From contig CAMFLL010000025.1 of NCBI GenBank assembly GCA_945957405.1, forward strand, positions 1 through 38,004: 38,004 bases of DNA, given 5' to 3'. The position numbers and the translations under genes were made by a program. The notes under the pieces were generated by a model, which was not told where the DNA came from, did not search any database, and was given only the letters and a program-made list of their open reading frames with translations. The stretch comes from an uncultured Mycolicibacterium sp. Its GTDB lineage: Bacteria > Actinomycetota > Actinomycetes > Mycobacteriales > Mycobacteriaceae. This document shows, piece by piece, positions 5,486 to 38,004 of the stretch (position 1 is its first letter; each line of letters starts with the position of its first letter).

Positions 5486-5499
5486 TGTAACCGGTTACC
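5486..5499. promoter_or_regulatory. LacI-type operator of the MaoC/DUF993 divergent promoter
   Basis: TGTAACCGGTTACC contains the perfect 12-bp dyad GTAACCGGTTAC with the central CG typical of LacI-family operators. It directly follows a -10-like TATGAA (5480-5485) for the rightward gene. The flanking 17 bases are an exact reverse complement of the sequence upstream of the crotonase gene at 13085-13096. A LacI regulator gene lies between the two sites at 7498-8511. The assignment of regulator to site is inference; the sequence identity is direct. Confidence 0.85.
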
Positions 5500-5512
5500 T
5501 AAGGTGTTCACA

Positions 5513-12269: not shown

Positions 12270-13072
12270 CGGGAGGCTCCTTGCAGGCCGAGGCGGTGAG
12301 TGAACGTCGGCGGGCGCTTCTCGATGAAGGCCGCCGCGCCCTCGCGGGCGTCATCGGTGCTGTAGACCTCGGCGATCGACTCGATCTCCGCATCGCGGCC
12401 TGCCTCCCTGCCGCGGGTGAGTCCGGTGTTCACGCAGTGCTTGGTGGCCCGCAGTGCCGCCTGCGGCAACTCGGTGAGTCGCTCGGCGATGCGCATCGCC
12501 TCGTCCTCGCCGACGCCGTCGGGGACGACCGACGTGACCAGTCCCCACGCCAGCGCCGTCGTCGCGTCGACGCTGTCACCGAGCAGCAGCATGTGCCGGG
12601 CCCGGCCGGCGCCGATGATCTGCGGAAGTCGTTGGGTGCCGCCGCCGGACGCGAACACGCCGACCTTGACCTCGGGTAGCCCGATGGATGCCGTGTCCTC
12701 CGCGACGCGGATGTCGGCGACCAGCGACAACTCCAGGCCACCACCGAGGGTGTGGCCACGAAGCACCGCGACCAGCGGTTGCGGGATGTTCTCGAGCGCG
12801 TCGTATGCGGCGTGCTCCGATGCCGACACCGCGCGCCCCGCCTCAGGGTTGGTGGGAAAACCCTTGATGTCCGACCCGACCGACAGTGACTTCGGGCTCC
12901 CGGACGTCAGCACCACCGCACGCACATCCGTGCGCTCCGCAATGTCCAGGGCGACGTCGCGCAATTGGCTGCGCATGTCGTTGGTGAGTGGATTCAGTGG
13001 CGGGTTCACCAGCCGGATCACGCCCACCGCTCCTACGGTCGCGAACTCCACGCGGGCCGTCTTGTCAGTCAT
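12266..13072 (-). CDS. enoyl-CoA hydratase/isomerase (crotonase family)
   Basis: A 268-residue crotonase. The oxyanion-hole segments are SVGSDIKGF and GHTLGGGLELSL, and both catalytic glutamates are present (GGLELS and SIGLPEVKVG), so hydratase activity is plausible. ATG at 13070-13072 is preferred over the TTG just before it because GGAGG lies at a normal distance. It is the first gene of a five-gene leftward operon (hydratase, CoA-transferase, transporter, SDR, LacI). The promoter just upstream carries the same dyad as the MaoC/DUF993 promoter. The acyl chain processed is unknown. Confidence 0.92.
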   Translation of the reverse strand: MTDKTARVEFATVGAVGVIRLVNPPLNPLTNDMRSQLRDVALDIAERTDVRAVVLTSGSPKSLSVGSDIKGFPTNPEAGRAVSASEHAAYDALENIPQPLVAVLRGHTLGGGLELSLVADIRVAEDTASIGLPEVKVGVFASGGGTQRLPQIIGAGRARHMLLLGDSVDATTALAWGLVTSVVPDGVGEDEAMRIAERLTELPQAALRATKHCVNTGLTRGREAGRDAEIESIAEVYSTDDAREGAAAFIEKRPPTFTHRLGLQGASR

Positions 13073-16007: not shown

Positions 16008-19000
16008 GTGTCGCGCGTTTTTGTCAGTCATTCCCGCTGGAACAATCGTCAAGCAAAGGCGGTCAAAGCCTGGCTGATTCAGCACGAGCCGGGGCTCGTC
16101 GACGATATCTACCTGGATGTCGACCCGCTGACCGGTATTCGGCCCGGCGTGCGATGGAAGCAGGCTCTGCAGCAGGCCAACAGTCGCTGTGAAGCCGTGA
16201 TCTGCCTGCTTTCACAACACTGGCTGGACTCAGCCGAGTGCCAGACCGAGTTCCGGTATTCCGAGACGCTGAACAAGTCGATTCTGGTTGGCCGACTCGA
16301 GCCGCTGCCGGACACCAACATCACCTCGGAATGGCAGCGCTGCGATCTGTTTGCGGATGACGGTTCGGTTGTCCATGTCGATATCGGTGACGGGGGACCG
16401 GTCGAGTTGGCCGGTGACGGTCTGAAGCGACTGCTCGCGGGTCTGCGCGCGCTGGGAATTGGCGCTGAGTATTTTCCGTGGCCACCGCCGAACGACGTCG
16501 AGCGCGCCCCTTATCGGGGTTGGGCCCCACTCGAAGAAGCTGATGCGGCGGTCTTTTTCGGTCGCGACGCCCAAATACTGCGTGGTCTGGATCTGCTCCA
16601 CGGGATGCGTATCTCCGGGGTGGAGCAGATGTTCGTCGTCCTCGGGCCGTCGGGGGCGGGCAAGTCGTCGTTCTTGCGGGCCGGGTTGATGCCACGGCTG
16701 CGCCGCGATGACCGCCGATTCCTGCCTTTGCCGATGGTGCGTCCCGAACGGGCAGTGCTCAGCGGAGAAATCGGGCTGGCGCGATCGATCCACGGGTTAC
16801 GCACCGAGCTGGGTCTTCGTCATCCCGTGCTTGGTGAGATCAAGAGCGCTTGCCGTTCGCAAGACGTTGACCGACTTCGGGATTGGCTGCAGGAGTCGCG
16901 TGACGCCGCGGGCAGCCGATCGCTGGCGGAGCCGGCAGGGCAGCCCGGTCCCACTCTGGTGCTGCCGGTCGACCAGGCCGAGGAGTTGTTCAACGTCGAC
17001 GCCGGCCCCGAAGCTGCTCGCTTTCTCGAACTGATGGCCGCGCTCACAGGCAGTAAGGCGGGATTTACGCCGATGATGATCTTGGCGCTGACCATCCGCG
17101 CCGACCGGTACGAACCCCTGCAGGTCGCACCTCAGCTGACCGCGGTCCGCAGCATTGTGTTCGACGACCTCAAACCCATGCCGGCGGCTGGCTATGCCGA
17201 GGTGATCACCGGCCCGGCCCGCCGTGCCACCGCGGCCGGCAGGCGACTCACGGTCGAGCCGGCACTTCTCGAACGGCTGTTGGCCGAGACCGCCGATGGC
17301 GCCGACGCGCTGCCGCTGCTCGCGTTGACCCTGGAACGGCTTCACGGCGACTACGGTGCCGACGGCGATTTGACCCTGGCCGAATTCGAAGCCATGGGCG
17401 GCATGGAAATGGTGGTACAGAATGCGGTGGTAACCACACTCGACAGCGATCCCGCCGAGCGGCGGGCACAACTCAACACCTTGCACGATGCTTTCATTCC
17501 GTGGCTAGCGACGATCAATCCTCTCAACAACGAACCGATGCGACGCCTGGCCCGCTGGGAGGATCTACCGGTCGCGAGTCTTCCGCTGATCCAATCGATG
17601 GTCGATAAACGACTCCTGGTCAAGGACGCCCGCGGCGGTGACGTGGTCGTGGAGGTGGCGCTGGAAAGCTTGCTGCGCCAATGGCGTGAGCTCGCGGCGT
17701 GGCTGCGTGATGAAGCGCAGGACCTCAAGAACGCGGATTCCCTTGAACGTGCAGCTGCTGATTGGCAGGGCAGCGGGCAAGATCGCTACTGGCTGCCGCA
17801 GGGCACCCGGTTGGTCGAAGCCGAAACCCTGGCTGCCAAACCTCATTTCCGTAGCCGGCTCGCTACGATTCGCGACTTCCTGCAATCTGCTCGGACGCGC
17901 GAGAACGAGCGGACCGATGCCGAGAAGGAGCGCCAGCAGGCCGAACTGCACGCCGCCAAACAACACGCTGCGGCGCTGCGAAAGCGGTCACGAATACTCG
18001 CCGCGGTATCGGTGGTCACGGCCGTTGTCGCTGTTGTGGCAGTTTTTCTGGGTGTAGAGGGCTATTCGCTCCGGCGAGAAGCCAACGAGCGTCTTCGCGA
18101 GGCAGTCAGCATCCGCCTGGACACCGAGACGCCTTTGATGCTCACGGGGTATCGCCCCGGCGGGCCGGTCCGCGCATATCAACAGTTGGTTACCGCGCGC
18201 CAACTCCTGAGCTCGCCAGATGATGGCCCGTTGCTTGACGTGCTGCCCAAACTGGTCAACCTGGTCAAGATCATCGGCACACCAGCGGCAGTGGGCAGTG
18301 TCGCGATGAGCCACGATGGTCAGCGGATCGTCGCGGGCGGCAGCGATCAGGTGATCCGGGTTTGGGACGCCAACACCGGCGAACTCGAGTGGGAGTCTCC
18401 ACCGGCTTACACGAATGCGCTGAACAGCGTCACGTTCAGCCCCGATGGAACACGCATCGCCTCTGCCGGAGACCGGTCGGTGCGACTCTGGGATGCGGGT
18501 ACAGGGCAACCGATCGGCTCCTCGATGTTGCACTCCGATTTTGTACTCTGCGTCGCCTTCAGTCCTGACGGGACGCGCATTGCTTCCGGCGGACGCGACG
18601 ACGTGGTGCGGTTGTGGAATGCGGAGACTGGTGCGGCAGTTGGCGAGTTGACGGGACATACGAGTGACGTCGACAGCGTGGCATTCAGCCCCGACGGAAA
18701 GCGGATCGTGTCCGGCAGCGACGACAAGACCTTACGTCTGTGGAACACCGACACCGGTCACGCGATCGGTGATCCGCTGGTTGGACATGAAAGTGCCGTC
18801 ACCAGTGTGGCATTCAGCCCTGACGGACGACGAGTGGTGTCTGGCAGTTGGGATAAAACTGTGCGGCTCTGGGATGTAAGCACCCTCAAACCGCTGGGTA
18901 AACCAATGGCCGGTCCGGCGGACTACGTCAGCAGTGTGGCTTTCAGCCCAGATGGTCGTCGAGTTGCAGCGGGCAGTTGGGACAAGACAGTCCGGCTGTG

Positions 19001-20210
19001 GAACGCCGACAACGGGCAGCCTATCGGCCTGCCGCTCACTGGTCAGGCGACCGACCCCCTCAAAGGGGTGACCGGCATAGGGTTCAGCCCAGACGGAAAT
19101 CACTTGTTATCAGGCAGTTTCGACACCACAATCAGAATCTGGGATGTCGATACCGCTCGGCCATTCGGCCAGTCTTTGATGCCTGACGGTACCGGAGTGA
19201 CGTCGAATAACGCGCAACGTGGTGTGGCGGACGTTGCCTTCAGTCCCGACGGGGAGCGCATCGCGTCTGCCAGTTTCGACGGTGCGGTGCGGGTGTGGAG
19301 TGCCAACACGGGAAAACAGATCGGACCGCCATTGATCGGCCATACTGATGCTGTCACCAGCGTGGCCTTCAGTCCCGATGGCAAGCGACTTGCGTCCAGT
19401 AGTGGTGATGGCACGGTGCGGTTCTGGGATGTGGTTGCAGGCAGGCAGATTGGGGCTCCGCTGACCGGTCACTCGGGCGCGGTGTACACCGTGGCCTTCA
19501 GTCCGGACGGCCAGCGTGTCGTGTCCGGTGGTGGTGATGGCACGGTGCGGTTCTGGGATGTAAATACCCACACGCAGATCGGAACCGCGCTGGCCGGTAG
19601 TACGAGCTCGGTCAACGCGGTCGCGTTCAGTCCGGATGGCGAGCGTGTCGTGACGGGTGCGGGTGACGGGGTGGTGCGGTTGTGGGATGCCCATACCCGC
19701 AAAGCGATTGGCGAACCCCTATCCGACGCCCCGGACTGGATACACAGTGTGGCGTTCAGTCCCGACGGCACACGAATAGTTGCCGGCAGCTCGAGCAATA
19801 TGGTTCGGCTGTGGGATGCAAACACAGGCAAGCTGATCGGAGAACCACTGGTTGGTCACACCGGATATGTGTTCGGTGTGGCCTTCAGTCCCGACGGCAA
19901 GCGGATTGCTTCGTCGGGGAACGACAACACCATTCGGCTCTGGAACGCCGAGAACGGTCGACCCTTGGGGGCGCCGCTCTCGGGTCATGTGGAACCTGCT
20001 TATGGCTTGGCGTTCAGCCCCGACGGCAGCACGTTGGTTTCGGGCAGTATCGACGGTTCATTGCGGCTGTGGCCGATGTTCGCCGAACCGTTGGCAGCGT
20101 TGTGCTCCAAGCTGACCACCAACATGAGTCACAAGCAGTGGCGCGACTGGGTGTCACCAGACATTGGCTATGAAAAAGCGTGCCCGGATCTTCCAATTGC
20201 TGCCGACTGA
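16008..20210 (+). CDS. TIR-nSTAND ATPase-transmembrane-WD40 protein (14 blades)
   Basis: 1400 residues. An N-terminal TIR domain (about 1-140) begins VFVSHS and has W72-x2-S75-x2-C78-x2-E81, E81 matching the catalytic glutamate of NAD-cleaving TIRs. A STAND NTPase follows with FFGRD, Walker A GPSGAGKSS (213-221) and a Walker-B-like VDQAEELF (D322). A charged coiled coil (about 627-661) precedes one membrane helix (663-684). Fourteen WD40 repeats run from about 762 to 1365, most with the core FSPDG and RLW. A longer linker between repeats 7 and 8 suggests two seven-bladed propellers. The tail has the CSKLTTN and KACPDLP signature common in nSTAND1-WD40 proteins. The GTG at 16008 has a G-rich site six bases upstream. 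Such proteins are predicted immune or cell-death sensors; no partner gene is evident. GC looks lower than in neighbours, hinting at acquisition. Confidence 0.9.
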   Translation: MSRVFVSHSRWNNRQAKAVKAWLIQHEPGLVDDIYLDVDPLTGIRPGVRWKQALQQANSRCEAVICLLSQHWLDSAECQTEFRYSETLNKSILVGRLEPLPDTNITSEWQRCDLFADDGSVVHVDIGDGGPVELAGDGLKRLLAGLRALGIGAEYFPWPPPNDVERAPYRGWAPLEEADAAVFFGRDAQILRGLDLLHGMRISGVEQMFVVLGPSGAGKSSFLRAGLMPRLRRDDRRFLPLPMVRPERAVLSGEIGLARSIHGLRTELGLRHPVLGEIKSACRSQDVDRLRDWLQESRDAAGSRSLAEPAGQPGPTLVLPVDQAEELFNVDAGPEAARFLELMAALTGSKAGFTPMMILALTIRADRYEPLQVAPQLTAVRSIVFDDLKPMPAAGYAEVITGPARRATAAGRRLTVEPALLERLLAETADGADALPLLALTLERLHGDYGADGDLTLAEFEAMGGMEMVVQNAVVTTLDSDPAERRAQLNTLHDAFIPWLATINPLNNEPMRRLARWEDLPVASLPLIQSMVDKRLLVKDARGGDVVVEVALESLLRQWRELAAWLRDEAQDLKNADSLERAAADWQGSGQDRYWLPQGTRLVEAETLAAKPHFRSRLATIRDFLQSARTRENERTDAEKERQQAELHAAKQHAAALRKRSRILAAVSVVTAVVAVVAVFLGVEGYSLRREANERLREAVSIRLDTETPLMLTGYRPGGPVRAYQQLVTARQLLSSPDDGPLLDVLPKLVNLVKIIGTPAAVGSVAMSHDGQRIVAGGSDQVIRVWDANTGELEWESPPAYTNALNSVTFSPDGTRIASAGDRSVRLWDAGTGQPIGSSMLHSDFVLCVAFSPDGTRIASGGRDDVVRLWNAETGAAVGELTGHTSDVDSVAFSPDGKRIVSGSDDKTLRLWNTDTGHAIGDPLVGHESAVTSVAFSPDGRRVVSGSWDKTVRLWDVSTLKPLGKPMAGPADYVSSVAFSPDGRRVAAGSWDKTVRLWNADNGQPIGLPLTGQATDPLKGVTGIGFSPDGNHLLSGSFDTTIRIWDVDTARPFGQSLMPDGTGVTSNNAQRGVADVAFSPDGERIASASFDGAVRVWSANTGKQIGPPLIGHTDAVTSVAFSPDGKRLASSSGDGTVRFWDVVAGRQIGAPLTGHSGAVYTVAFSPDGQRVVSGGGDGTVRFWDVNTHTQIGTALAGSTSSVNAVAFSPDGERVVTGAGDGVVRLWDAHTRKAIGEPLSDAPDWIHSVAFSPDGTRIVAGSSSNMVRLWDANTGKLIGEPLVGHTGYVFGVAFSPDGKRIASSGNDNTIRLWNAENGRPLGAPLSGHVEPAYGLAFSPDGSTLVSGSIDGSLRLWPMFAEPLAALCSKLTTNMSHKQWRDWVSPDIGYEKACPDLPIAAD
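19402..19561 (+). repeat. 31-nt identical repeat inside WD40 blades 9 and 10
   Basis: The 31 bases at 19402-19432 and 19531-19561 are identical, 129 bases (43 codons, one blade) apart and in the same frame. They encode the SGDGTVRFWDV / GGDGTVRFWDV strand of adjacent blades. Most other blades differ at synonymous positions, so this pair points to a recent blade duplication or gene conversion. Confidence 0.85.
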
Positions 20211-28221: not shown

Positions 28222-29514
28222 TCAGATCGGCTCGCCCGGCAAACGGATGTGATGACGCCCGATCTGGGCCGTTGACCGCACACCGAGAAGCTGCATGCCG
28301 CGCTGGTAGCCATCGCGCAGGATCTGCACGGCGCGCTCCACGCCGCGTTCGCCGCCGGCCATCAATCCGTACAGATAGGCGCGGCCGATCATCACCGCGT
28401 CGGCACCCAGCGCCACCGCGGCAATGATGTCCTGCCCGTGCGTGATGCCACCATCGATCAGCACGGTGGCCTCGGTGCCCACCGCGGCGCGTACGGCGGG
28501 CAGGGCCTCGAGTGTCGACGGCGTGCGATCCAGTTGCCGGCCACCATGGTTGGACACCACCACGCCGTCGGCGCCCATCTCGACCACTGTGCGCGCATCC
28601 GCAGGGTTCAGGATGCCCTTGACCAGCAGCCGGTGCGGCCACCGGCGGCGCAGCCATTGGAGGTTCTCGAACGCCAGCCCGGGATCGAACACTGTCGCGG
28701 GCACATCGACGGCCTTGATCGCCGAGCCACCGATACCCTGCATCGACGCGAACGTGATCCCCGGCGTCGTCAACTTGTTCACCCACCAATAAGGGTGACG
28801 CGCCATGTCCAGGAACGTCTTCGCGGTCAACGCCGGTGGGATGGTCAGGCCATTGTGGATGTCACGCAGGTGATGCCCGGCCACCGCGGTGTCGACGGTG
28901 AGGACCACCGTCGAGAAGCCCGCCGCCAACGCACGATCGATGAGCGCATCGTTGATCGCCGGGTTGTTCGTGAGATAGAGCTGGAACCAGTTGTCACCGA
29001 AGGGTGCCGCCTCCGCGATCTGTTCCACGGTCGACGTGCCCACCGTGGACAGCGCGTACGGCAGACCGTGCCTGGCGGCGACGCGCGCAACGGCCACCTC
29101 GCCTTCGTGGTGCATCATCCGCGTGTAGCCGGTGGGCGCGAATACCAGTGGAAAGGCGATCAGGCTCCCGAGGACGTCGGTCGACAGATCGGGGTCTTTG
29201 ACCGAGCGCAGCACCTCCGGGACGAACCTGATGTCACTGAAGGCGGTGCGGTTGCGGTCCAGGGTGGCCTCGGCGTCCGAGGCCCCGTCGACGTAGTCGA
29301 AGACGCCGCGCGGTGTGGTCCTGGCCGCGATCCGACGCAACTCGTCTATCGACAGAGCACCCTGCAGCCGTCGCGTGACGGGGTTGAGCGTGGGGGAGCG
29401 GAACTGCAGGAGCTCGCGCAGTTCGGCGGCCTTGGGCAGTCGGCGTTCGACTGGCGGCCGACGGTCCGCCGGCGTTGGGCGGGTGGTGATTCGGGCTCGT
29501 CCCATGGTGGTCAT
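28222..29514 (-). CDS. FMN-dependent alpha-hydroxy acid oxidase/dehydrogenase
   Basis: 430 residues of the glycolate oxidase/L-lactate/mandelate dehydrogenase family. Visible are GVFDYVDGASDAEATL, the FMN motif FAPTGYTRMMHHEGE, WFQLYLTN, the catalytic His/Arg segment VVSNHGGRQLD and the phosphate-binding IDGGITHGQD and GADAVMIGRAYLYG. It oxidises an (S)-2-hydroxy acid to the 2-oxo acid. The N-terminal 45 or so residues before the domain are basic and proline-rich, somewhat longer than usual. It is divergent from the SDR-transporter operon and carries an operator copy at 29535-29553 downstream of its -10 box, placing it in the IclR-linked regulon. Confidence 0.92.
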   Translation of the reverse strand: MTTMGRARITTRPTPADRRPPVERRLPKAAELRELLQFRSPTLNPVTRRLQGALSIDELRRIAARTTPRGVFDYVDGASDAEATLDRNRTAFSDIRFVPEVLRSVKDPDLSTDVLGSLIAFPLVFAPTGYTRMMHHEGEVAVARVAARHGLPYALSTVGTSTVEQIAEAAPFGDNWFQLYLTNNPAINDALIDRALAAGFSTVVLTVDTAVAGHHLRDIHNGLTIPPALTAKTFLDMARHPYWWVNKLTTPGITFASMQGIGGSAIKAVDVPATVFDPGLAFENLQWLRRRWPHRLLVKGILNPADARTVVEMGADGVVVSNHGGRQLDRTPSTLEALPAVRAAVGTEATVLIDGGITHGQDIIAAVALGADAVMIGRAYLYGLMAGGERGVERAVQILRDGYQRGMQLLGVRSTAQIGRHHIRLPGEPI

Positions 29515-29534
29515 CGGAAACCTTTCTGCGTCTT

Positions 29535-29553
29535 ATATTTCAGACGTTGTCTG
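29535..29553. promoter_or_regulatory. IclR-locus operator copy 1 (FMN oxidase promoter)
   Basis: ATATTTCAGACGTTGTCTG contains the dyad CAGAC-GTT-GTCTG. Its first 16 bases are identical to the reverse complement of the site at 33592-33610. It lies 11 bases downstream of the -10 box of the leftward promoter and 20 bases upstream of the start codon. Confidence 0.75.
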
Positions 29554-29564
29554 CAATTACAGAG

Positions 29565-29593
29565 ATCGTAGGTTCGTCGCGCATCTCGGTCAA
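29565..29593 (-). promoter_or_regulatory. promoter of the FMN oxidase gene
   Basis: On the minus strand TTGACC (29588-29593) and TACGAT (29565-29570) are 17 bases apart. The operator copy at 29535-29553 follows 11 bases later, the same distance as on the opposite strand at 29682-29694. Confidence 0.5.
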
Positions 29594-29619
29594 GGGCGCG
29601 GGCGATTGCTGATGCCTAT

Positions 29620-29665
29620 TGATCCGGTATTGACCTGCATCATGATCCGGTATTGACCTGCATCA
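29620..29665. repeat. exact 23-bp tandem duplication in the divergent promoter region
   Basis: The 23 bases at 29620-29642 are repeated exactly at 29643-29665. Each copy holds a TTGACC, so the -35 box of the rightward promoter is duplicated (29630-29635 and 29653-29658). Only the second copy has correct spacing to the -10 box. Confidence 0.95.
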
Positions 29666-29682
29666 CAAATCTCGGGCACAAT
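29653..29682 (+). promoter_or_regulatory. promoter of the SDR-MHS transporter operon
   Basis: TTGACC (29653-29658) and CACAAT (29677-29682) are 18 bases apart, a fair housekeeping-type promoter. The large dyad at 29683-29717 begins at the next base, so bound regulator would block initiation. Confidence 0.55.
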
Positions 29683-29717
29683 GTTCGAAACAACAGACAC
29701 TGTCTGAAATATCGAAC
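29683..29717. promoter_or_regulatory. IclR-locus operator copy 2, extended 35-bp dyad
   Basis: The core CAGACA-C-TGTCTG (29694-29706) is a perfect inverted repeat. GTTCGA (29683-29688) and TCGAAC (29712-29717) form a second pair of arms about exactly the same centre (29700). CTGTCTGAAATATCG is shared with the other sites. It lies just after the -10 box of the rightward operon. Confidence 0.82.
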
Positions 29718-29731
29718 AGGAGCCAAGTGAG

Positions 29732-30505
29732 ATGGATCTAGGTTTGACGGGGCGAACCGCACTGGTGTGCGCATCGACTTCAGGACTTGGAATGGCGACC
29801 GCGACTGCGCTCGCCGAGGACGGCGTGACCGTCGTCGTGACCAGCCGATCGGCGCAGCGCGCCGAACAGATCGCGGCATCCCTGCCCAATGCGGTGGGCA
29901 TCGGCAGCGACCTGGTGGCCCCGGGCGGGGCGGCACAACTGTTCGCGGCTGCTCGTGACCGCGTCGGAGATCTGGACATCCTCGTGCTGAACGGACCCGG
30001 GCCCGCCCCGGGGAGCGCGCGGGACACCGACGAAACAGGGATCGGGGCGGCGGTAGCGACATTGGTGACACCGCAGGTGCACCTGGTGCGGTCGGTGCTG
30101 CCCGCGATGCGCGCTCAACGCTGGGGCCGCATCCTGAGCATCAGCTCGACCAGTGTCGAAGCACCGATCCCCAATCTGGCGCTGTCGAACCTCGGGCGCA
30201 GTGCGCTGGCCAACTACCTGAAGACCCTCGCCACCGAGGTCGCCGGCGACGGCATCACCGTGAACTCGCTGCTACCCGGCCGGATCGCGACACCGCGGGC
30301 GCGCGCCATCGACGAGGCCGCCGCCGAACGCACGGGCAAGCCTCTGGCCGACGTGCAGCAGGCGTCGAGCGATCTGATCCCCGTCGGACGCTACGGCGAC
30401 CCCGACGAGTTCGGCGCGGTCGCGGCCTTCCTGTGCAGTGCCCGCGCCTCCTACATCACCGGCACCGCACTGCGGTGTGACGGCGGAATGATCCCGACGC
30501 TGTGA
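29732..30505 (+). CDS. SDR-fold protein lacking the usual catalytic Tyr/Lys
   Basis: 257 residues of SDR fold. The cofactor loop reads LVCASTSGLG (Ala-Ser replacing the first Gly positions). The catalytic serine region LSISSTSVEA is present. Where classical members have YxxxK, this protein has LALSNLGRSAL, that is Ser and Arg. This matches a known FabG-like subfamily with an altered active site, seen beside catabolic genes; its reaction is uncertain. The C-terminal YITGTALRCDGG is normal. AGGAG lies nine bases before the ATG. It is the first gene of the operon controlled by the 35-bp dyad, followed by the transporter. Confidence 0.88.
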   Translation: MDLGLTGRTALVCASTSGLGMATATALAEDGVTVVVTSRSAQRAEQIAASLPNAVGIGSDLVAPGGAAQLFAAARDRVGDLDILVLNGPGPAPGSARDTDETGIGAAVATLVTPQVHLVRSVLPAMRAQRWGRILSISSTSVEAPIPNLALSNLGRSALANYLKTLATEVAGDGITVNSLLPGRIATPRARAIDEAAAERTGKPLADVQQASSDLIPVGRYGDPDEFGAVAAFLCSARASYITGTALRCDGGMIPTL

Positions 30506-30552
30506 ACATCCCGAAGCCCACGACATCCACCGAACCCCATCAGGAGAACCCC

Positions 30553-31881
30553 ATGACCGCTGTCAACGATGTTCCTGCACAACAGACAGACACCGGGCCC
30601 GACACCAAACGGGTGGCGCTGGCCGGCATGATCGGCACCGCCGTCGAGTGGTACGACTTCTACATCTACGGTATGGCCGCCGCACTGGTCTTCGGACCAA
30701 AGTTCTTCCCATCCTTCTCGCCGGTCGCAGGCACACTGGCGGCCTTCGGCACGTTCGCGGTCGGATTCGTGGCCCGGCCGCTCGGCGGAATCATCTTCGG
30801 CCACTTCGGCGATCGGGTGGGCCGCAAGCGCGCGCTGATCATCACCTTGTTCCTGATGGGTGCCGCCACCGTGGCGATCGGGCTGTTGCCCACCTATGCG
30901 ACCGTCGGGGTCTGGGCGCCGCTCGCACTCGTGACGCTGCGTTTCCTGCAGGGCTTCGCCGTCGGCGGCGAATGGGGCGGCGCGGTGACAATGGTGGTCG
31001 AATCCTCACCTGCACACCGGCGCGGCTTCTTCGGCAGCCTCCCGCAGATGGGGGTACCGCTGGGCTTGGTGCTCTCGACATTGATCTTCGCCGCGCTGGC
31101 AATGCTGCCCGACGACGCGTTCAACAGCTGGGGCTGGCGAATCCCGTTCCTGCTCAGCGCGTTCCTGATCGCGGTCGGGCTGTTCATCCGCGCCCGGATC
31201 AACGAAACCCCGACGTTCTCGGAGCTGAAGAAGACCGGTAACGAGGCCAAGCTGCCCGTCAAGGAGGCGTTCCAGACACAATGGCGGTCCATCGCTATGA
31301 CGGTCGGCTTGTACGTGTCGGCGGGTATCCCGTTCTACATCGTCACGGTCCTCGTGCTCGCCTACGGCTCGAAGGAGCTGGGCATCGCCAAGGGCGTGCT
31401 GTTGACCGGCATGCTGATTGCCGCTGTGCTCGAGGCCGTCGCTGTCCCGTTCTTCGGGGCACTGTCGGACCGCGTGGGGCGGCGACCTGTCTTCATCGCG
31501 GGTGCAGCGTTCGCCCTGGCGTTGGCGTTTCCGTTCTTCTGGATGCTGGCCACCGGGACCACCGGTCTGGTCTGGTTGGCCATCGCGATGGCTCTGGCAG
31601 TGGCGCACGCCGCCATGTACGGGCCGACGGCGGCTCTCTATGCCGAGCTGTTTCCGCCGGCCGTCCGCTACACCGGCACGTCGGTCGGCTACCAATTGGG
31701 CGGTGTGGTGGCCGGATTCGTGCCGCTGACGGCGGGAGCCCTGGTCTCGTGGGCCGGCGGTGCGAGCTGGCCGATCGCGACGATCTGGGCGGTGGCCGCC
31801 GTGATCGGTCTGGTCTGCGCGCTGATCGTGCGGGAGACCCGCGGCAGCGACCTGTCGGACACGGAGACCGCCCCGGTCTGA
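30553..31881 (+). CDS. MHS-family MFS proton symporter
   Basis: 442 residues, 12 helices: [53 protein letters not shown] and GALSDRVGRRP are the standard MHS marks, with the acidic/Arg motif complete in both halves. The ATG at 30553 is chosen because AGGAG precedes it; a GTG at 30502 overlaps the SDR stop and is also in frame. It lies in one operon with the SDR and probably imports the substrate of the IclR-linked pathway. A strong hairpin follows the stop. Confidence 0.92.
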   Translation: MTAVNDVPAQQTDTGPDTKRVALAGMIGTAVEWYDFYIYGMAAALVFGPKFFPSFSPVAGTLAAFGTFAVGFVARPLGGIIFGHFGDRVGRKRALIITLFLMGAATVAIGLLPTYATVGVWAPLALVTLRFLQGFAVGGEWGGAVTMVVESSPAHRRGFFGSLPQMGVPLGLVLSTLIFAALAMLPDDAFNSWGWRIPFLLSAFLIAVGLFIRARINETPTFSELKKTGNEAKLPVKEAFQTQWRSIAMTVGLYVSAGIPFYIVTVLVLAYGSKELGIAKGVLLTGMLIAAVLEAVAVPFFGALSDRVGRRPVFIAGAAFALALAFPFFWMLATGTTGLVWLAIAMALAVAHAAMYGPTAALYAELFPPAVRYTGTSVGYQLGGVVAGFVPLTAGALVSWAGGASWPIATIWAVAAVIGLVCALIVRETRGSDLSDTETAPV

Positions 31882-31898
31882 GGATGACCGAGCGCGAT

Positions 31899-31937
31899 AC
31901 CGAGGTAGCCCGCGGCAAAGCCGCGGGCTACGTCGGT
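31899..31937 (+). terminator. strong hairpin terminator after the transporter
   Basis: A perfect 12-bp stem with an AAA loop (31905-31931) is extended by five more pairs after one G-G mismatch, reaching 31899-31937, and is followed by TTTC. The T tract is short, as is common in mycobacteria. It starts 18 bases after the transporter stop codon. Confidence 0.85.
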
Positions 31938-31977
31938 TTCGGAGACGGCGGCCTCGAGCGCCAGGCCCACAACGTAA

Positions 31978-32014
31978 ACCGCCGCCGACCCCTTCAGACG
32001 AGGCCGGCGGCGGT
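31978..32014 (-). terminator. hairpin terminator after the ALDH gene
   Basis: ACCGCCGCCG (31978-31987) and CGGCGGCGGT (32005-32014) form a perfect 10-bp stem with a 17-nt loop. On the minus strand it begins 12 bases beyond the ALDH stop codon. The convergent transporter has its own separate hairpin. Confidence 0.65.
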
Positions 32015-32026
32015 GAACGTCGTCGG

Positions 32027-33481
32027 TCAGTTGTCGATGCGCTGCGGGACCTGCATCGGGTTGGCGTCCTGCAACGCGGAGGGCAGCAGGTGCTCGGGCA
32101 TTCCCTGATAGGCCACGGGCCGCAGGAACCGCTCGATTGCTGCGCCCCCGACCGATGTGGACGACGGCGCAGTGGTGGCGGGGTACGGGCCGCCGTGCTG
32201 CTGGGCGTAGGTGACGGTGACACCCGTCGGCCACTGGTTCCACAGCACCCGGCCGGCCTTGTCGCTGAGCACCCGGATCAACTGGGGCGCAATGGCGTCG
32301 TCGTCGCTGCCCTGGACGGTGGCTGTGAGCTGGCCGTGCAGTGCGGTCGCGACGTCGAGCAACTGGCTTTCGTCGTCGTACTCCACCACCAGCGCAGTGG
32401 GTCCGAAGACCTCGGTGATGAGGTGCTCTGGGTCGGCCAGCACATGGTCGACGGAGGTCAGCACGAGCGTCGGAGCAGGCGGATCGTCATGGCTGGCGGG
32501 GTGCAGAACAAGGGGCTGCACGGCGTCGTGCTGCAGGATCTCGGTCAATGCGCCGACATAGCCGGCGTGGATGCGCGTGTTGAGCAGTGATGCGGCGCTG
32601 GGTGTTTGCGCGTCGCGCAGGCGCTGCACCAGGTCGCTGTCGACGGGCACGAAGAGCACGCCGGGTTTGGTGCAGAACTGTCCGGCGCCCAGGGTGAACG
32701 AGTCGACGAAGCCGCCGACGATCTCATCGGCGCGGCGCGCGGCCGCTGATTTCGTCACAAAGGTGGGATTGACGCTGCCCAGTTCGCCGAAGAACGGGAT
32801 GGGTTCGGGCCGTCCGCACGCGAGGTCGAACAGCGCACGCCCGCCGGGGATGGACCCCGTGAAGGACGCCGCCTTCACGCGGGGATCCACCAGCGCTTGT
32901 CTGCCGGTCTCGGTGCCGGTGATGACGGAGAGCAGCCCGTCGGGTCCACCGGCCTCCTGAATGGCCTGTGCCACAACCGCACCGGTCTGTACCGACAGTT
33001 CCGGGTGCCCGGAATGGGCCTTGACGATCACAGCGCACCCGGCCGCCAGCGCGGAGGCGGTGTCGCCGCCGGCGACACTGAACGCGAACGGAAAGTTGCT
33101 GCCCGCGAACACCAGGACAGGGCCGACGGGTTGGTTGACGCGGCGGATGTCGGGGCGCGGACCCATACCCCAATTGGGATCCGCATGGTCGATACGGGCA
33201 TCCAGGTAGTCACCCGTCTCGACGATGTCGGCGAAGAACCTCAGCTGAAAGGTGGTCCTCAGCAATTCGTTGCGCAGCCGCGGAACCGTGAGATGGGTTT
33301 CGGTGGCGGCGGTCTCGATGAGCTCAGCGGCGCGGTCGTCCAGTCGGTCGGCGACGGTGCGCATCACCGCGGCACGGAACGTCGCAGGGCTGTTCGCCCA
33401 GACCGCCGATGCATGTGCGGCGGTGTCCAAGATGTCGTCGAGGGTGGCGTGCGGGTGAGTGTCAGCGATGTCAATGCTCAT
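32027..33481 (-). CDS. aldehyde dehydrogenase, 2-oxoglutarate semialdehyde (2,5-dioxovalerate) type
   Basis: 484 residues of the KGSADH-type ALDH branch. Features are NQPVGPVLVFAGSNFPFAFS, VKAHSGHPELS, the catalytic glutamate in PFFGELGSVNPTFV and the cysteine in LGAGQFCTKPGVLF, with the branch-specific AYQGMPEHLLPSALQDANP C terminus and NQWPTGVTV. Relatives oxidise 2-oxoglutarate semialdehyde at the end of oxidative pentose, glucarate and hydroxyproline pathways. ATG at 33479-33481. It is divergent from the Zn-ADH and shares its promoter region, which carries two operator variants. Its presence suggests that the pathway ends at 2-oxoglutarate or a similar dicarboxylate (inference). Confidence 0.9.
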   Translation of the reverse strand: MSIDIADTHPHATLDDILDTAAHASAVWANSPATFRAAVMRTVADRLDDRAAELIETAATETHLTVPRLRNELLRTTFQLRFFADIVETGDYLDARIDHADPNWGMGPRPDIRRVNQPVGPVLVFAGSNFPFAFSVAGGDTASALAAGCAVIVKAHSGHPELSVQTGAVVAQAIQEAGGPDGLLSVITGTETGRQALVDPRVKAASFTGSIPGGRALFDLACGRPEPIPFFGELGSVNPTFVTKSAAARRADEIVGGFVDSFTLGAGQFCTKPGVLFVPVDSDLVQRLRDAQTPSAASLLNTRIHAGYVGALTEILQHDAVQPLVLHPASHDDPPAPTLVLTSVDHVLADPEHLITEVFGPTALVVEYDDESQLLDVATALHGQLTATVQGSDDDAIAPQLIRVLSDKAGRVLWNQWPTGVTVTYAQQHGGPYPATTAPSSTSVGGAAIERFLRPVAYQGMPEHLLPSALQDANPMQVPQRIDN

Positions 33482-33492
33482 GTATGTCCTAA

Positions 33493-33513
33493 ATATCAGA
33501 CGGAAGACGATAT
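33493..33513. promoter_or_regulatory. IclR-locus operator variant at the ALDH promoter
   Basis: ATATCAGACGGAAGACGATAT has ATATC/GATAT outer arms about one centre and one good half site, ATATCAGAC. It is the weakest member of the set. It lies 11 bases upstream of the ALDH start codon on the minus strand. Confidence 0.5.
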
Positions 33514-33552
33514 GTAGATCATGCTTTCACGGCGCGGTGACTCGGTCAACTC

Positions 33553-33582
33553 TTGACGCGGCACAGGTAGCCGCGACATAAT
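33553..33582 (+). promoter_or_regulatory. promoter of the zinc alcohol dehydrogenase gene
   Basis: TTGACG (33553-33558) and CATAAT (33577-33582) are 18 bases apart. A minus-strand TTGACC lies close by (33544-33549), so divergent -35 boxes nearly touch. The operator variant at 33592 follows nine bases later. Confidence 0.55.
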
Positions 33583-33591
33583 TCAAAATAT

Positions 33592-33610
33592 CGAACAACG
33601 TCTGAAATAT
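33592..33610. promoter_or_regulatory. IclR-locus operator copy at the alcohol dehydrogenase promoter
   Basis: CGAACAACGTCTGAAATAT has the half site GTCTGAAATATCG in common with 29694-29712, and its reverse complement shares 16 consecutive bases with the site at 29535. It sits between the -10 box and the ribosome site. Confidence 0.72.
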
Positions 33611-33624
33611 CGATCGGAGTGGAC

Positions 33625-34803
33625 ATGAAAGCCGCAGTCCTTCATCAAGTCGGCGCACCGCTGGAAATCGAAGATGTGCAGATCGGCCAGTTGCACCCAG
33701 GTGATGTGCTGATCCGCGTGCTCGCCGCCGGCGTCTGCCACAGCGACCTGCACTACATCAACGGCGACCTCACGGCGAAGCTACCGGCCGTCCTGGGTCA
33801 CGAGGGCGCGGGCGTCGTCGAGGCTGTCGGTCCCGGCGTCACCAGGGTGAAGCCCGGCGACTCGGTGATCACCACGTGGCGCCCGCGCTGCGGCGAATGC
33901 GAATTCTGCACCACGGGGCGTCCCGCGTTGTGCGCGCTGGGACGGGTGCAGGCCACCGGCGGCGGACTGATCGATGGCCGGACCCGACTCACGCTACGCG
34001 GCAAGCCTGTTCACCACCTGATGGGTGTTTCGTGTTTCGCCGAGCAGTGCGTGGTGTCGGACCGGTCGGTGATCCGCATCGACCCGACGGTACCGCCGGA
34101 GATCGCGGCGATCGCCGGTTGCGCTGTAGTGACCGGCGTGGGGACCGTGTTGCACCACATGGCCGAAGCCACCGGCGAGCCGGTCGCGGTGATCGGCGCC
34201 GGCGGTGTGGGGCTGAGTGCGGTGATGGGATTGCAGCTCACCGGCGCTCACCCGATCATCGCTGTCGACACCATCGATTCCCGGCTGGACCTGGCCCGCA
34301 CGATGGGTGCCAGTCACGTGGTCAACGCAGCGACGGTCGGTGATGTCGGCGAGGAAATCCGTCGCATCTGTGGTGAATCCCCGCGCTGGGCCATCGACGC
34401 GGTGGGGGCACCCGCCACCCTGCGTCAGGCAATCGACCTGGTGGGTACCGGCGGTACCGTCGTGGCGGTCGGGCTCGGAAAGGTCGGCGCCGCGACCACC
34501 ATCGAGATCAACCCCCTTGTGCAACAGGAGAAGCGGATCGTCGGCAGCCTGTACGGCTCGGCCAACACGCCGCTGGACATCCCGAAGATCCTGCGCCTCT
34601 ACCAGGCGGGGCGGTTGCCGCTCGACCGCCTGCTCGGTGCCGGCTACGAACTGTCTCAGATCAACGAGGCCTACCGCGCACTGACCGACGGCGCCACCGG
34701 CAGGGCCGTCATCACCATGGGCCAGCGCGGCACCTACGGCCTGGCCACCGAGCCCAGGCTGGCCGACATCTCGGCCGCTCCCTCCAACACCAGCTTGACG
34801 TAG
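33625..34803 (+). CDS. zinc-dependent alcohol dehydrogenase (MDR, class III-like)
   Basis: 392 residues of a medium-chain dehydrogenase. Catalytic zinc ligands are in AAGVCHSDLH and VLGHEGAGVVE; the structural zinc loop has CGECEFCTTGRPALC; the NAD fold shows VIGAGGVGLSAVMG followed by an acidic VDT. It oxidises a primary alcohol or hydroxymethyl group to an aldehyde, which the divergent ALDH could then oxidise. The ATG at 33625 has GGAGTGG upstream; a GTG two codons earlier is also possible. The last 70 bases overlap the convergent IclR gene, so the C-terminal tail beyond about residue 370 is probably not part of the fold. Confidence 0.92.
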   Translation: MKAAVLHQVGAPLEIEDVQIGQLHPGDVLIRVLAAGVCHSDLHYINGDLTAKLPAVLGHEGAGVVEAVGPGVTRVKPGDSVITTWRPRCGECEFCTTGRPALCALGRVQATGGGLIDGRTRLTLRGKPVHHLMGVSCFAEQCVVSDRSVIRIDPTVPPEIAAIAGCAVVTGVGTVLHHMAEATGEPVAVIGAGGVGLSAVMGLQLTGAHPIIAVDTIDSRLDLARTMGASHVVNAATVGDVGEEIRRICGESPRWAIDAVGAPATLRQAIDLVGTGGTVVAVGLGKVGAATTIEINPLVQQEKRIVGSLYGSANTPLDIPKILRLYQAGRLPLDRLLGAGYELSQINEAYRALTDGATGRAVITMGQRGTYGLATEPRLADISAAPSNTSLT

Positions 34804-35510
34804 CGGGCCTTGACGGTCTTGTTCCAGCGCGGGGTGGGAACCGAAATGCTCATCGCAGCAACACAATTGCCGGCCCGGTCGTATACCGGCGCCGAGACGC
34901 AGGCGATCGAGGTGTTCGATTCGCTGTTCTCCTCGGCCCAGCCGCGCTTACGCACCGCGGCGAGCTCGTCGAACAGCCGCTCCCGGTTGTCGATGCTGTT
35001 GTCGGTCATGGGAGCCAGGGCGTCGTCGTCGGGGAACAGCTCGTCGATCTCGGCATCTGACAGTGCCGCGAGCATTGCCTTGCCGCCCGCCGTGCAGTAC
35101 GCCGGGAGGCGGCTGCCGACATGAGACACCAGTCGGAGGGTGTGCGTGCTGTCGATACGCACGATGTAGACGACGAACGCCCCTTCACGGATCACGATCT
35201 GGACGGTCTCGCCGCACTTGGCGGCGACCCGACTCGCGTGCTCGCGCCCCACCGACAGCAGGTCCAGCTCGCGCTCGTAGGCGGCGCCGAGCCGGAAGGC
35301 GTTGACGCCGAGCGTGTATCGGCTCGGCGGTTCGGAGACCGCCTGCAGATAACCGCGGTCGACCAGTGTGGCCACCAGTTCGTGGGCACTGGCGCGGGGC
35401 AGGTCGAGACGCGCCGTGATGTCGGGGACCCGCAATCCCTCGTTGGATTCCAGGAACAGTTCGAGGATGTCCAAGCCGCGGCGAAGGGCGGGAGCGCTGA
35501 TCCGGGTCAT
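34734..35510 (-). CDS. IclR-family transcriptional regulator, probable regulator of this locus
   Basis: 258 residues. The N-terminal winged HTH is LRRGLDILELFLESNEGL, VPDITARLDLPRASAHELVATL and YLQAVSEPPSRYTLG. The IclR effector domain follows, with LVSHVGSRLPAYCTAGGKAMLA and the C-terminal ACVSAPVYDRAGNCVAAMSISVP. It is divergent from the hydratase gene, and a perfect TCGGAC-GAT-GTCCGA lies in that promoter. The same family of dyads is found at the other two divergent promoters of the locus, so it is the likely regulator of all of them. Its 3' end overlaps the alcohol dehydrogenase gene by 70 bases. Confidence 0.92.
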   Translation of the reverse strand: MTRISAPALRRGLDILELFLESNEGLRVPDITARLDLPRASAHELVATLVDRGYLQAVSEPPSRYTLGVNAFRLGAAYERELDLLSVGREHASRVAAKCGETVQIVIREGAFVVYIVRIDSTHTLRLVSHVGSRLPAYCTAGGKAMLAALSDAEIDELFPDDDALAPMTDNSIDNRERLFDELAAVRKRGWAEENSESNTSIACVSAPVYDRAGNCVAAMSISVPTPRWNKTVKARYVKLVLEGAAEMSASLGSVARP

Positions 35511-35567
35511 CGATATCCGTTCTGCCGTACCGGTCGTGCGGGCCGACCCGCCGACCCATTCATGTTA

Positions 35568-35582
35568 TCGGACGATGTCCGA
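35568..35582. promoter_or_regulatory. IclR-locus operator at the regulator/hydratase divergent promoter
   Basis: TCGGACGATGTCCGA is a perfect 6-bp-arm inverted repeat with a 3-base centre, followed by AAAAATCAGAC, which repeats the AAATAT-like extension and a half site seen at the other copies. It is 23 bases upstream of the hydratase start. Confidence 0.75.
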
Positions 35583-35605
35583 AAAATCAGACACCAGGAG
35601 ATGCA

Positions 35606-36364
35606 ATGCCGACACAACTGACAGGGCGGACCGCATCGCGGCTGCACACCGCGGCGACCATGGCCGACCCGGTTGCCGCCACTCCCGCCGAAGCGGCGAT
35701 GAATCTCGACACGGCTTATGCCGTGCAGCGCGAACTGGCGCAGCTGTCGGGGCAGCGGATCGCAGGCTACAAGATCGGACTGACGTCCGCGGCGGCGCAG
35801 GCACAATTCTCTGTCGACCACCCGATCGCCGGGTTCCTCACCGACACAGCCGTGATCGCGAGCCACGACACTGTCTCGTTGACCGGGATGATCGACCCCA
35901 AGGTGGAGATCGAGTTCGGCTTCCTGCTGGCCGAAGACGTCGACGGTAGCGCCACCGCAGCCGACATCCTGGCGGCCACTCGCACGCTGATGCTGTGCCT
36001 GGAGATCATCGACAGCCGGTGGAGTGGCGGACCCGGCACCGTCGCAATGCTCGTGGCCGACAACTCGAGTGCCGCGCGAGCGGTGACCGTCCGCGAGATC
36101 GGCGTGCCCGACGGTTTGGCCGACGCCGCGGTGTCCGCGACCATCGGGAACACCGTGCTCAGCGGCAACGCCCGCGACGTGATGGGTCATCCCGCGCAGT
36201 CGGTGGCGTGGCTGGCCGGGCACCTCGCCACCGACGGACGGCGGCTGGCCGCCGGTGATCTGGTGCTCAGCGGCAGCCTCATCGCGCCGCAGCCCATCCG
36301 TCCCGGCGACCAGGTGGACGCCGACTTCGGACCCCTGGGTACCGTGAGCGTGCGCTTCGGCTAG
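35606..36364 (+). CDS. 2-oxopent-4-enoate hydratase-like protein (MhpD/FAH fold)
   Basis: 252 residues of the MhpD/DmpE/XylJ family. Marks are YKIGLTSAAAQAQF, the metal-ligand segment DPKVEIEFGFLL (Glu/Glu), CLEIIDSRW, the VADNSSAA motif and VMGHPAQSVAWLAGHLA, with VLSGSLIAPQPIRPGD near the end. Such enzymes add water to 2-oxo-4-enoic acids; related ones decarboxylate or dehydrate 2-oxo acids. The ATG at 35606 has AGGAG five bases before it. It is divergent from the IclR gene. No meta-cleavage dioxygenase or 4-hydroxy-2-oxovalerate aldolase is nearby, so a standard aromatic meta pathway is not encoded here. Confidence 0.9.
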   Translation: MPTQLTGRTASRLHTAATMADPVAATPAEAAMNLDTAYAVQRELAQLSGQRIAGYKIGLTSAAAQAQFSVDHPIAGFLTDTAVIASHDTVSLTGMIDPKVEIEFGFLLAEDVDGSATAADILAATRTLMLCLEIIDSRWSGGPGTVAMLVADNSSAARAVTVREIGVPDGLADAAVSATIGNTVLSGNARDVMGHPAQSVAWLAGHLATDGRRLAAGDLVLSGSLIAPQPIRPGDQVDADFGPLGTVSVRFG

Positions 36365-38004
36365 CCCTCCATGATCCGGCGCACCGTGCCGGCCGAGTCG
36401 GCCTCCAGCGCCCGTTGCGCGGCAACGGTGGCGGCGCCGAAGTCGACGGCGCGTAACGCCTCCTTGGTCCCGGGGATGGCCGGGGGAGTGACCGACAGCG
36501 CGTCGACGCCGAGCCCGAGCAGCAGACCCGCCGCGCGTTCGTCGGCGGCGAACTCACCGCACACCGATACTGACGCCAACCCCCGCGCACCGTCGCAGGT
36601 CGCCCGAATCAACTGCAGCAGACCGGGATCAAACGAATCGCCGATCGGCGCCACCGCGTCATTGCCGCGGTCGGCGGCCAGAGCGTACTGCGTCAGGTCG
36701 TTGGTGCCGATCGACATGAAGTCGACATACCGGGCAAAGCTCGCCGATTTCAGTGCGGCGGCGGGCACCTCGACCATCATCCCGACCTGCAACTGATCAG
36801 GCCGGCCGCGGCCCGCAGACGCCACGGCCTGATCCACCATGGCACGGGCGGTCAGCAGCTCATCGACTGTGCTGACCATCGGGAACATGATGCTCACGGG
36901 GGTGTGCTGGGCGACCAGTGCCATGGCCAACAGCTGATCGGCCAGCAGATCGGGATGCACGAGCGACAGCCGCAGCCCGCGCACCCCGAGGAACGGGTTG
37001 ACCTCGGCGGCGGTGGGCAGGAACTCCAGCGGCTTGTCGCCCCCCACGTCGAGGGTGCGCAACGTGACGCGCCGCCCGTCGAGCGACTCGGCGATCTTCC
37101 GGTACACGGCGACCTGTTCGTCGACTCCCGGCGCGTCCGGACGACCCAGGAACAGGAACTCGGTGCGCACAAGACCGGCGAAGTCGGCGCCGTGGGCGGC
37201 GGCCGCCCGGGCGTCGTCGACCGACCCGATGTTCGCGCCGACCCCGACGACCACCCCGTCGCACGTTACGGCCGGCTCACCCGCACGCAGCTGGGCGGCC
37301 TGCTGCCGACGGGCCAGCGCCTCGACTCGATCCCGGAATTGCTCTTGGTCCGCGGCCGGCGGGTCGACCAGGAAGTCTCCACGCGTACCGTCGACGGCCA
37401 CCACGGTGCCCTCGGTGATCGTCAGCACGGCCTGACCGGCACCCACCACGACAGGAATACCCTTGGCCCGCAACAGAATAACGTTGTGAGCATGCGGGCT
37501 GCCGAACGCCATCAGCACGGCGGCCACCTGGTCGGGAACCAGTTCGGCAGCCTCGGCGGGTGTCAGGTCATCGGCGATCAGCACACCGGAGCTCTGCGTG
37601 CCGGCGGCCGCCGAGCCCAGCATCGCCCGCAGCACCTGATCACCCACGGCGCGCACATCGGCGGCGCGGGCCTGCAGGTACGGGTCGGGCAGCGCGGCGA
37701 ACTCGGCGGCCAGCTCGCTGACCGCCGTCGACCACGCCGCCGGCGCCGACGCCCCGCCGTCGACGAGGTGGCGCGCCTTGTCGAGCAACTCGGCGTCGTC
37801 GAGCAGCAGCTGGTGGGCATCGAAGATCGCGGCCTCGGCCTCGCCGACCTCGCGGGCGGTTCGGGTGCGCAGCTGGCTGATGGTGCGCCGCACCGTAGCG
37901 ATCGCCTTCCCCAGCCGGCGGCCCTCGGTCGCCGGGGCGTCGGCGGGAAGGTCGGGAACCTCGATGGGGCCTGATCGCGCCGAGCGGGCCGGACCGATTC
38001 CCAA
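36361..38004 (-). CDS. PTS enzyme I domain (PtsI or C-terminal part of DhaM), 5' end outside window
   Basis: The visible 547 residues cover nearly all of an enzyme I. The phosphohistidine region reads MAFGSPHAHNVILLRAKGIPVVVG, with the second His (visible residue 173) in the active position; the usual GGxTSH is altered to GSPHAH. The PEP-binding barrel has RTEFLFLGR, LRTLDVGGDKPLEFL, FLGVRGLRLSL, MMVEVPAAAL, IGTNDLTQYALAADRGN and SVCGEFAADERA with the catalytic Cys. The open frame continues to the window edge, so the true start is upstream. It transfers phosphate from PEP to HPr; I cannot tell stand-alone PtsI from a fused DhaM. Its stop overlaps the convergent hydratase by four bases. Confidence 0.9.
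   Translation of the reverse strand: MGIGPARSARSGPIEVPDLPADAPATEGRRLGKAIATVRRTISQLRTRTAREVGEAEAAIFDAHQLLLDDAELLDKARHLVDGGASAPAAWSTAVSELAAEFAALPDPYLQARAADVRAVGDQVLRAMLGSAAAGTQSSGVLIADDLTPAEAAELVPDQVAAVLMAFGSPHAHNVILLRAKGIPVVVGAGQAVLTITEGTVVAVDGTRGDFLVDPPAADQEQFRDRVEALARRQQAAQLRAGEPAVTCDGVVVGVGANIGSVDDARAAAAHGADFAGLVRTEFLFLGRPDAPGVDEQVAVYRKIAESLDGRRVTLRTLDVGGDKPLEFLPTAAEVNPFLGVRGLRLSLVHPDLLADQLLAMALVAQHTPVSIMFPMVSTVDELLTARAMVDQAVASAGRGRPDQLQVGMMVEVPAAALKSASFARYVDFMSIGTNDLTQYALAADRGNDAVAPIGDSFDPGLLQLIRATCDGARGLASVSVCGEFAADERAAGLLLGLGVDALSVTPPAIPGTKEALRAVDFGAATVAAQRALEADSAGTVRRIMEG

Follow-up and report, generated by a model that had tools for sequence, protein, structure and literature searches.

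Gene content of the locus

The window, by which we mean the whole stretch of 38,004 nucleotides analysed here (contig CAMFLL010000025.1 of assembly GCA_945957405.1, from an uncultured Mycolicibacterium sp.), belongs to a single contig of the 7.8-Mb draft genome and carries at 28222-36364 a predicted catabolic cluster of seven genes that are set about three divergent gaps (29515-29731, 33482-33618 and 35511-35605) totalling 449 bases. One of the seven encodes an IclR-family regulator, and all three gaps hold copies of a repeated sequence element that is probably the operator of that regulator. The genes are as follows.

28222-29514, minus strand: FMN-dependent 2-hydroxy-acid oxidase/dehydrogenase-type protein (PF01070), here called FMN oxidase; predicted target
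29732-30505, plus strand: SDR oxidoreductase (PF13561); predicted target
30502-31881, plus strand: MFS metabolite/H+ symporter-type transporter (PF07690; TIGR00883 at 414 bits, cut-off 443); predicted target
32027-33481, minus strand: aldehyde dehydrogenase (ALDH; PF00171); predicted target
33619-34803, plus strand: zinc alcohol dehydrogenase (ADH; PF08240, PF00107); predicted target
34734-35510, minus strand: IclR-family regulator (PF09339, PF01614); predicted to bind the sites
35606-36364, plus strand: 2-oxo-alkenoate hydratase/decarboxylase-type protein (PF01557 and solved relatives), here called hydratase; predicted target

The SDR and transporter reading frames share 4 bases, and the transporter is a predicted target together with the SDR gene. 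Matches to Pfam, NCBIfam and PDB sequences (the last for all but the ADH and the transporter) identify enzyme classes only. The nearest full-length solved relatives of the FMN oxidase are mandelate dehydrogenases, ranked beneath two fused lactate-oxidase chains, while the nearest solved structures to the ALDH, 1eyy and 3v4c, are of the NADP type. The ADH scores 310 bits against TIGR03989, under the cut-off of 440, and the hydratase likewise falls under the cut-offs of the DmpH, HpaH and DmpE models. The family names suggest, as a guess at the chemistry, a pathway from alcohol through aldehyde and 2-hydroxy acid to 2-oxo acid, followed by hydration or decarboxylation. In the regulator an N-terminal helix-turn-helix (PF09339, 57.6 bits, cut-off 22) is joined to a C-terminal effector domain (PF01614, 151 bits, cut-off 24); no NCBIfam model reaches its cut-off with this protein, the highest being BhcR (162 of 350 bits) and the next PcaR/PcaU/PobR (151 bits, cut-off 285).

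Adjoining the cluster at 36361-38004 is the reading frame of a PEP-utilising enzyme I-type protein, with domains of the PTS enzyme I family, which runs off the end of the window and whose stop overlaps the end of the hydratase frame by four bases.

Anatomy of the repeated element

The element is built of 7-base boxes (YGTCYGA) that alternate in direction from one box to the next. Two boxes around a 4-base A+T centre form an 18-bp inverted repeat, YGTCYGA-W4-TCRGACR, which we call the unit; one base beyond it comes a third box, joined at some promoters by a fourth, so that the centres of successive units are 19 bp apart. Each gap contains at least one good unit, and the second units stand exactly 19 bp from the first.

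29529-29565, minus strand: FMN-oxidase operator; best unit 29529-29546 (CGTCTTATATTTCAGACG, 27.8 bits with the other-genomes matrix described below), second unit 29548-29565, junction core 29541-29553
29682-29718, plus strand: SDR operator with four boxes, all scoring positive; best unit 29701-29718 (23.9 bits), second unit 29682-29699 (14.8 bits), junction core 29694-29706
33485-33502, minus strand: ALDH operator; a single unit (TGTCCTAAATATCAGACG, 27.1 bits with the other-genomes matrix), whose adjoining boxes are poor and give no usable third box
33580-33616, plus strand: ADH operator; best unit 33599-33616 (16.3 bits), second unit 33580-33597 (8.2 bits), with the junction dyad the better palindrome
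35557-35593, no strand assigned: shared IclR/hydratase operator; best unit 35576-35593 (TGTCCGAAAAATCAGACA, 23.0 bits), third box 35568-35574, and a weak fourth box that makes a weaker second unit, 35557-35574

The 19-bp tandem spacing is thus found at the FMN oxidase, SDR and ADH promoters and also, with its weak second unit, in the IclR/hydratase gap. An earlier note on this DNA had proposed that a single core, CNGAC-N3-GTCNG, is shared by all three divergent gaps, and related sites do exist at every place it named. The core itself is the junction dyad that arises between two units spaced by one base, that is, one of two registers in a three- to four-box element, real at some promoters and not the sole register. 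Of the five sites, three (29541, 29694 and 35569) match the core exactly, the one at 33592 has one mismatch and the one at 33493 lacks the right half. The last of these places, 33493-33513, had been taken for a weak site; it is part of the unit 33485-33502, which in the unit frame is among the two best in the window. The 16 consecutive bases said to be common to two sites are indeed present, as ACAACGTCTGAAATAT at 33592 and, inverted, at 29535.

Enrichment in the window and the genome

The two descriptions of the element differ sharply in how far they exceed chance. The strict core occurs 6 times in the window against a mean of 2.42 expected, with 4 of 100 shuffles reaching 6, which is barely above chance, and three of its occurrences (8019, 12510 and 18919) lie outside the cluster; as the only unit of the operator it was rejected, being exact at three of five sites and near chance frequency. 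The unit pattern YGTYYGAWWWWTCRRACR, allowed up to two mismatches, occurs 7 times in the window against 0.17 expected, a number that none of the 100 shuffles reached. With at most one mismatch the whole genome contains 7 sites, six of them in the window and five of those in the three gaps; the sixth is at 10643 and the seventh lies within an open frame on another contig. With at most two mismatches there are 21 sites in the genome versus 6 for a reversed control pattern. A regulon wider than the cluster was considered and set aside: among the 14 sites with up to two mismatches outside the window, the three inspected (C94:13912, C94:6449 and C132:10480) are all inside open frames and are probably chance matches.

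A matrix trained on 37 sites from other genomes, with the window excluded from training, places its top five of all window positions at 29529 (27.8 bits), 33485 (27.1), 29701 (23.9), 35576 (23.0) and 33599 (16.3), one for each of the operators listed above. These five positions at or above 15 bits compare with 0.067 per copy in 60 Markov copies of the window, and four of the five score higher than any copy (best 16.9 bits).

The unit at 10643-10660, TGTTCGGATTTTCAGACA, has one mismatch and reaches 13.9 bits when scored by the other-genomes matrix. It overlaps the opening codons of a reading frame for an MFS transporter (9306-10661, minus strand) some 19 kb from the cluster. No third box is apparent there by eye, and the site is possibly an additional target or possibly chance.

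Conservation in orthologous loci

In a database search, proteins closely related to the IclR regulator came from scattered actinobacteria (among the best 120 of 281 hits), and eleven orthologous loci, with IclR proteins 62-79% identical to that of the window, were compared. They comprise one locus of an actinomycetote metagenome-assembled genome (L035), seven of one genus with large genomes (L105-L111), two of another genus (L112 and L113), and L114. Relatives above 60% identity are rare: beyond the window's own genome, searches at the level of order, class, family and genus found them in 0 of 396, 1 of 393, 0 of 400, 7 of 372, 2 of 22 and 1 of 12 genomes, the hit in the 12-genome set being the same genome as that in the 393-genome set, and the order, class and family searches yielded a single locus (L067) above 60% besides the window. 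In a plasmid search, IclR identity was 49% at best.

All seven genes are held together in 8 of the 11 loci, with identities of 66-69% for the FMN oxidase, 72-76% for the SDR, 65-70% for the transporter, 58-64% for the ALDH, 69-73% for the ADH and only 43-46% for the hydratase. The other three are L035, in which four cluster genes are seen (hydratase, IclR, ADH and ALDH), L114, with IclR, ADH, ALDH and a distant transporter, and L108, a 4.7-kb contig with the IclR gene and none of the other six. Pfam matches among neighbours in other loci include TetR, F420-type oxidoreductase, aldo-keto reductase, AurF and amino-acid permease proteins and others, and none of them names the substrate.

The unit is conserved with these genes. 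Scored with the window matrix, the eleven loci have 40 positions at or above 15 bits, 37 of which are before IclR, SDR, ADH or ALDH genes; counted by locus, the unit precedes the IclR gene in 11 of 11, the SDR gene in 8 of 8, and the ADH and ALDH genes in 9 of 10 each. It also precedes the FMN-oxidase gene in 8 of 8 loci, there in a weaker form of 12.2-13.7 bits. The regulon named in the earlier note (FMN oxidase, SDR, transporter, ALDH, ADH, IclR and hydratase) is in keeping with both the gene content and the sites, and its assignment to one predicted IclR operator is supported. We read the repeated element as the likely operator at which the adjacent IclR-family protein (34734-35510) would repress its own gene together with the FMN-oxidase, SDR-transporter, ALDH, ADH and hydratase genes.

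The remaining three 15-bit positions are all in L114, at 12587 and 12686, about the start of the gene preceding ADH, and at 5343, before another open frame. The gene set of L114 is different, with a CoA-transferase III, an acyl-CoA dehydrogenase, an AMP ligase and a glycosyl-hydrolase-88 match just under cut-off, and its regulon seems to have been rebuilt around other genes. As separate observations, the strong extra unit at 5343-5360 of that locus stands before a reading frame resembling a membrane protein, and the strong extra units within 12568-12704 lie about a divergent gap adjoining a reading frame similar to enoyl-CoA hydratase.

Predicted promoters and likely mode of action

A promoter scan of 29400-35700 found three promoter-like sites, against 0.5 expected in shuffles, and these belong to the ADH, SDR and FMN-oxidase genes.

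29565-29593, minus strand: predicted FMN-oxidase promoter, TTGACC-17-TACGAT
29653-29682, plus strand: predicted SDR promoter, TTGACC-18-CACAAT
33553-33582, plus strand: predicted ADH promoter, TTGACG-18-CATAAT

In the SDR promoter region a 23-bp tandem duplication (29613-29665) gives GATCCGGTATTGACCTGCATCA twice, and hence two copies of the -35 hexamer TTGACC.

At all three promoters the run of boxes already starts inside the predicted -10 hexamer, overlapping its end by one to three bases. The junction core starts 9 (ADH), 11 (SDR) and 11 (FMN oxidase) bases past that hexamer by the coordinates of the scan, in agreement with the 9-11 bases put forward earlier. Repression is the likely mode of action, because boxes at or past the predicted -10 would let the bound protein cover the start point. 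In the mechanism we propose, IclR dimers would sit on neighbouring box pairs two helical turns (19 bp) apart and might join into a tetramer; protein so bound would lie over the expected start point at the SDR, ADH and FMN-oxidase genes and block initiation, and binding of a metabolite of the pathway (perhaps a hydroxy- or oxo-acid) to the C-terminal domain would free the promoters again.

An alternative is that the IclR protein activates the cluster promoters, or both activates and represses them, in the manner of the aromatic-catabolism activators PcaU and PobR. The usual place for an activator to bind is upstream of the -35 hexamer, whereas in the orthologues the start of the unit lies 15-20 bases downstream of the putative -10 at the SDR, ADH and ALDH genes (27 bases at two of the ADH promoters), and at the FMN-oxidase genes the unit and the putative -10 overlap. 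We consider activation unlikely on this placement, even with PcaR/PcaU/PobR as the second-best model for the protein and with three-box sites described for PcaU and PobR (PMC8222616).

The protein predicted to bind the operator

The reading of the element as an operator for repression by the adjacent IclR protein has a second competitor, in which operators of IclR type are bound by a different regulator of the genome, for example another IclR protein or a HutR-like one. The genome has at least 30 IclR-family matches, and an idealised unit, GTCTGAAATATCAGAC, differs at only one of 16 positions from the published consensus for HutR of Corynebacterium resistens, GTCTGWWATWCCAGAC. The other IclR matches of the genome are, among the matches listed (ordered by E-value), at most 34% identical to the cluster protein, and the unit accompanies the orthologous IclR gene in all eleven loci, including five in which that gene has moved. 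In these five (L106, L107, L109, L110 and L111) other genes part the IclR gene from the hydratase gene, and the centre of the unit is still 41-57 bases before the IclR gene. The hydratase gene there is downstream of the ADH gene and codirectional with it, and lacks a separate 15-bit site. Control by a different regulator is, on balance, quite improbable.

The association extends to more distant relatives. Four of the 87 loci that have an IclR match, those at 60% identity or more, were excluded, and none was lost to short upstream sequence; the best upstream scores of the 57 loci at 42-54% identity exceed those of the 26 loci below 38% (medians 8.3 and -1.9 bits, p = 1e-8), and many upstream sites of the closer set are like CGTTCGAAATATCGGACG. 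In the helix-turn-helix, H43-E44-L45 is kept by all members of the 42-54% set, and R is the commonest residue at position 44 in the distant homologues.

A number of observations tell against assigning the element to the cluster's IclR protein as a repressor operator. Seven of the eleven orthologous loci are from one genus and are not independent, and L114 has no site directly before its ADH and ALDH genes, both of which are preceded by other genes. Upstream sites of at least 10 bits are absent from 35 of the 57 subfamily homologues, and 2 of the 26 distant ones reach that score. No promoter was found for the IclR gene itself, only one of the five IclR/hydratase gaps examined having a hexamer like TTGCC or TTGAC, with a poor -10, and the -10 hexamers of the ALDH promoters and of the orthologous SDR promoters are poor as well (2-3 of 6 positions). 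The fifth-ranked window site, 33599, with its 16.3 bits, lies under the best of the 60 Markov copies. Lastly, the junction dyad outscores the 18-bp unit at 21 of 50 sites, the unit being at least as good at the other 29, and this among sites chosen by the unit matrix, a choice that favours the unit.

Two registers of the box ladder

A half-site matrix was built from the unit boxes only, and further boxes were scored with it against flanking offsets. One base away from the unit, and continuing the alternation of direction, an additional box stands out at the SDR (z = 6.5), ADH (7.4), IclR-side (7.4) and FMN-oxidase (5.1) sites; at the ALDH sites it is weaker (3.4), with a fourth box at 4.6. In the half-sites, positions 2, 3 and 7 are G, T and A in 99%, position 4 is Y in 89% and position 6 is R in 76%; at position 5, T accounts for 61% and C for 38%.

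The register that makes the better palindrome depends on the promoter. At the IclR (12 of 12), ALDH (10 of 10) and SDR (6 of 9) sites the A+T-centred unit equals or outscores the junction dyad, and the junction dyad is the better at ADH (10 of 10), at FMN oxidase (8 of 9, the window being the exception) and at 3 of the 9 SDR sites. That the operator is the junction dyad alone, TCRGACR-N-YGTCYGA (the group-2 arrangement of the survey in PMC8222616), with the A+T-centred repeat only its flank, is very improbable: its lead at ADH, FMN oxidase and some SDR sites, gained with a matrix trained on unit halves, is offset by the results at ALDH and IclR and by a window ALDH site with no usable third box. 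For the operator of the cluster's IclR protein we tentatively raise the possibility, which we would hold as the less probable outcome, that two registers of one box ladder are read by one IclR protein, each promoter keeping its own. If true, the register would set the loading of dimers or tetramers, and hence the order in which the genes of a putative alcohol-to-oxo-acid pathway switch on. A promoter-specific register is the less expected part of the finding.

Relation to known IclR operators

According to the survey by Suvorova and Gelfand (2021; PMC8222616), IclR proteins use two arrangements of the same boxes; 32 orthologous groups have three-box sites, and 94 have tandem sites spaced by 18-22 nt. 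Operator types of this kind, three-box and tandem, are thus already described in that source, and the present group may already be listed there. One subgroup in it, NGT-12-ACN (NGTYCRA-W4-TYGRACN), has SDR (COG1028) and ALDH (COG1012) genes overrepresented among its targets. The likeness to the tandem operators of this subgroup, as there given, lies in the two 7-base boxes, the 4-base A+T centre, the spacing of units (19 bp here, 18-22 nt reported) and the presence of SDR and ALDH genes among the predicted targets; the difference lies in position 5 of the half-site, which is mostly T here and C there.

The HutR consensus quoted in the same source, reported for histidine utilisation, is nearer to the present unit than is the NGT-12-ACN consensus: it is of equal length and has the half-site GTCTG. 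The half-sites here differ from it in ending in A, and the target genes are different. As a side observation, two distant IclR homologues (L013 and L030), at 35% identity, are preceded by palindromes of the CGTCTGGTATCCCAGACG and TGTCTGGGATCCCAGACG types, close to the quoted HutR consensus.

The survey also names three-box operators for PcaU, PobR and HmgR, which resemble the present ones in their three alternating boxes, with one pair for each IclR arrangement. The elements described here differ from those of PcaU and PobR in that their boxes are at or past the predicted -10, suggesting repression, and in that the SDR site of the window has four boxes. Searches of the literature found the motif strings in papers, none of them about IclR by title, and found none for the gene set or for IclR operators in Mycobacterium.

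Other features of the window

Two further features were noted away from the cluster. A protein of 1400 residues encoded at 16008-20210 combines an nSTAND1 NTPase domain with a many-repeat WD40 propeller, an architecture of STAND type, and a DUF993 protein (5468-6661; 510 bits) lies upstream of a separate group of genes for a LacI regulator, an SDR, an MFS transporter and a CoA-transferase.

Implications

With the predicted operator, a seven-gene cluster of several actinobacterial genera would gain a defined switch, an operator model at the level of single boxes and a testable list of genes. With the operator in hand, the substrate of the pathway can be sought through compounds that release the IclR protein from DNA. 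The cluster would also supply natural promoters, each leaning towards one of the two dyad registers predicted for IclR proteins, and with them a direct test of alternative dimerisation.

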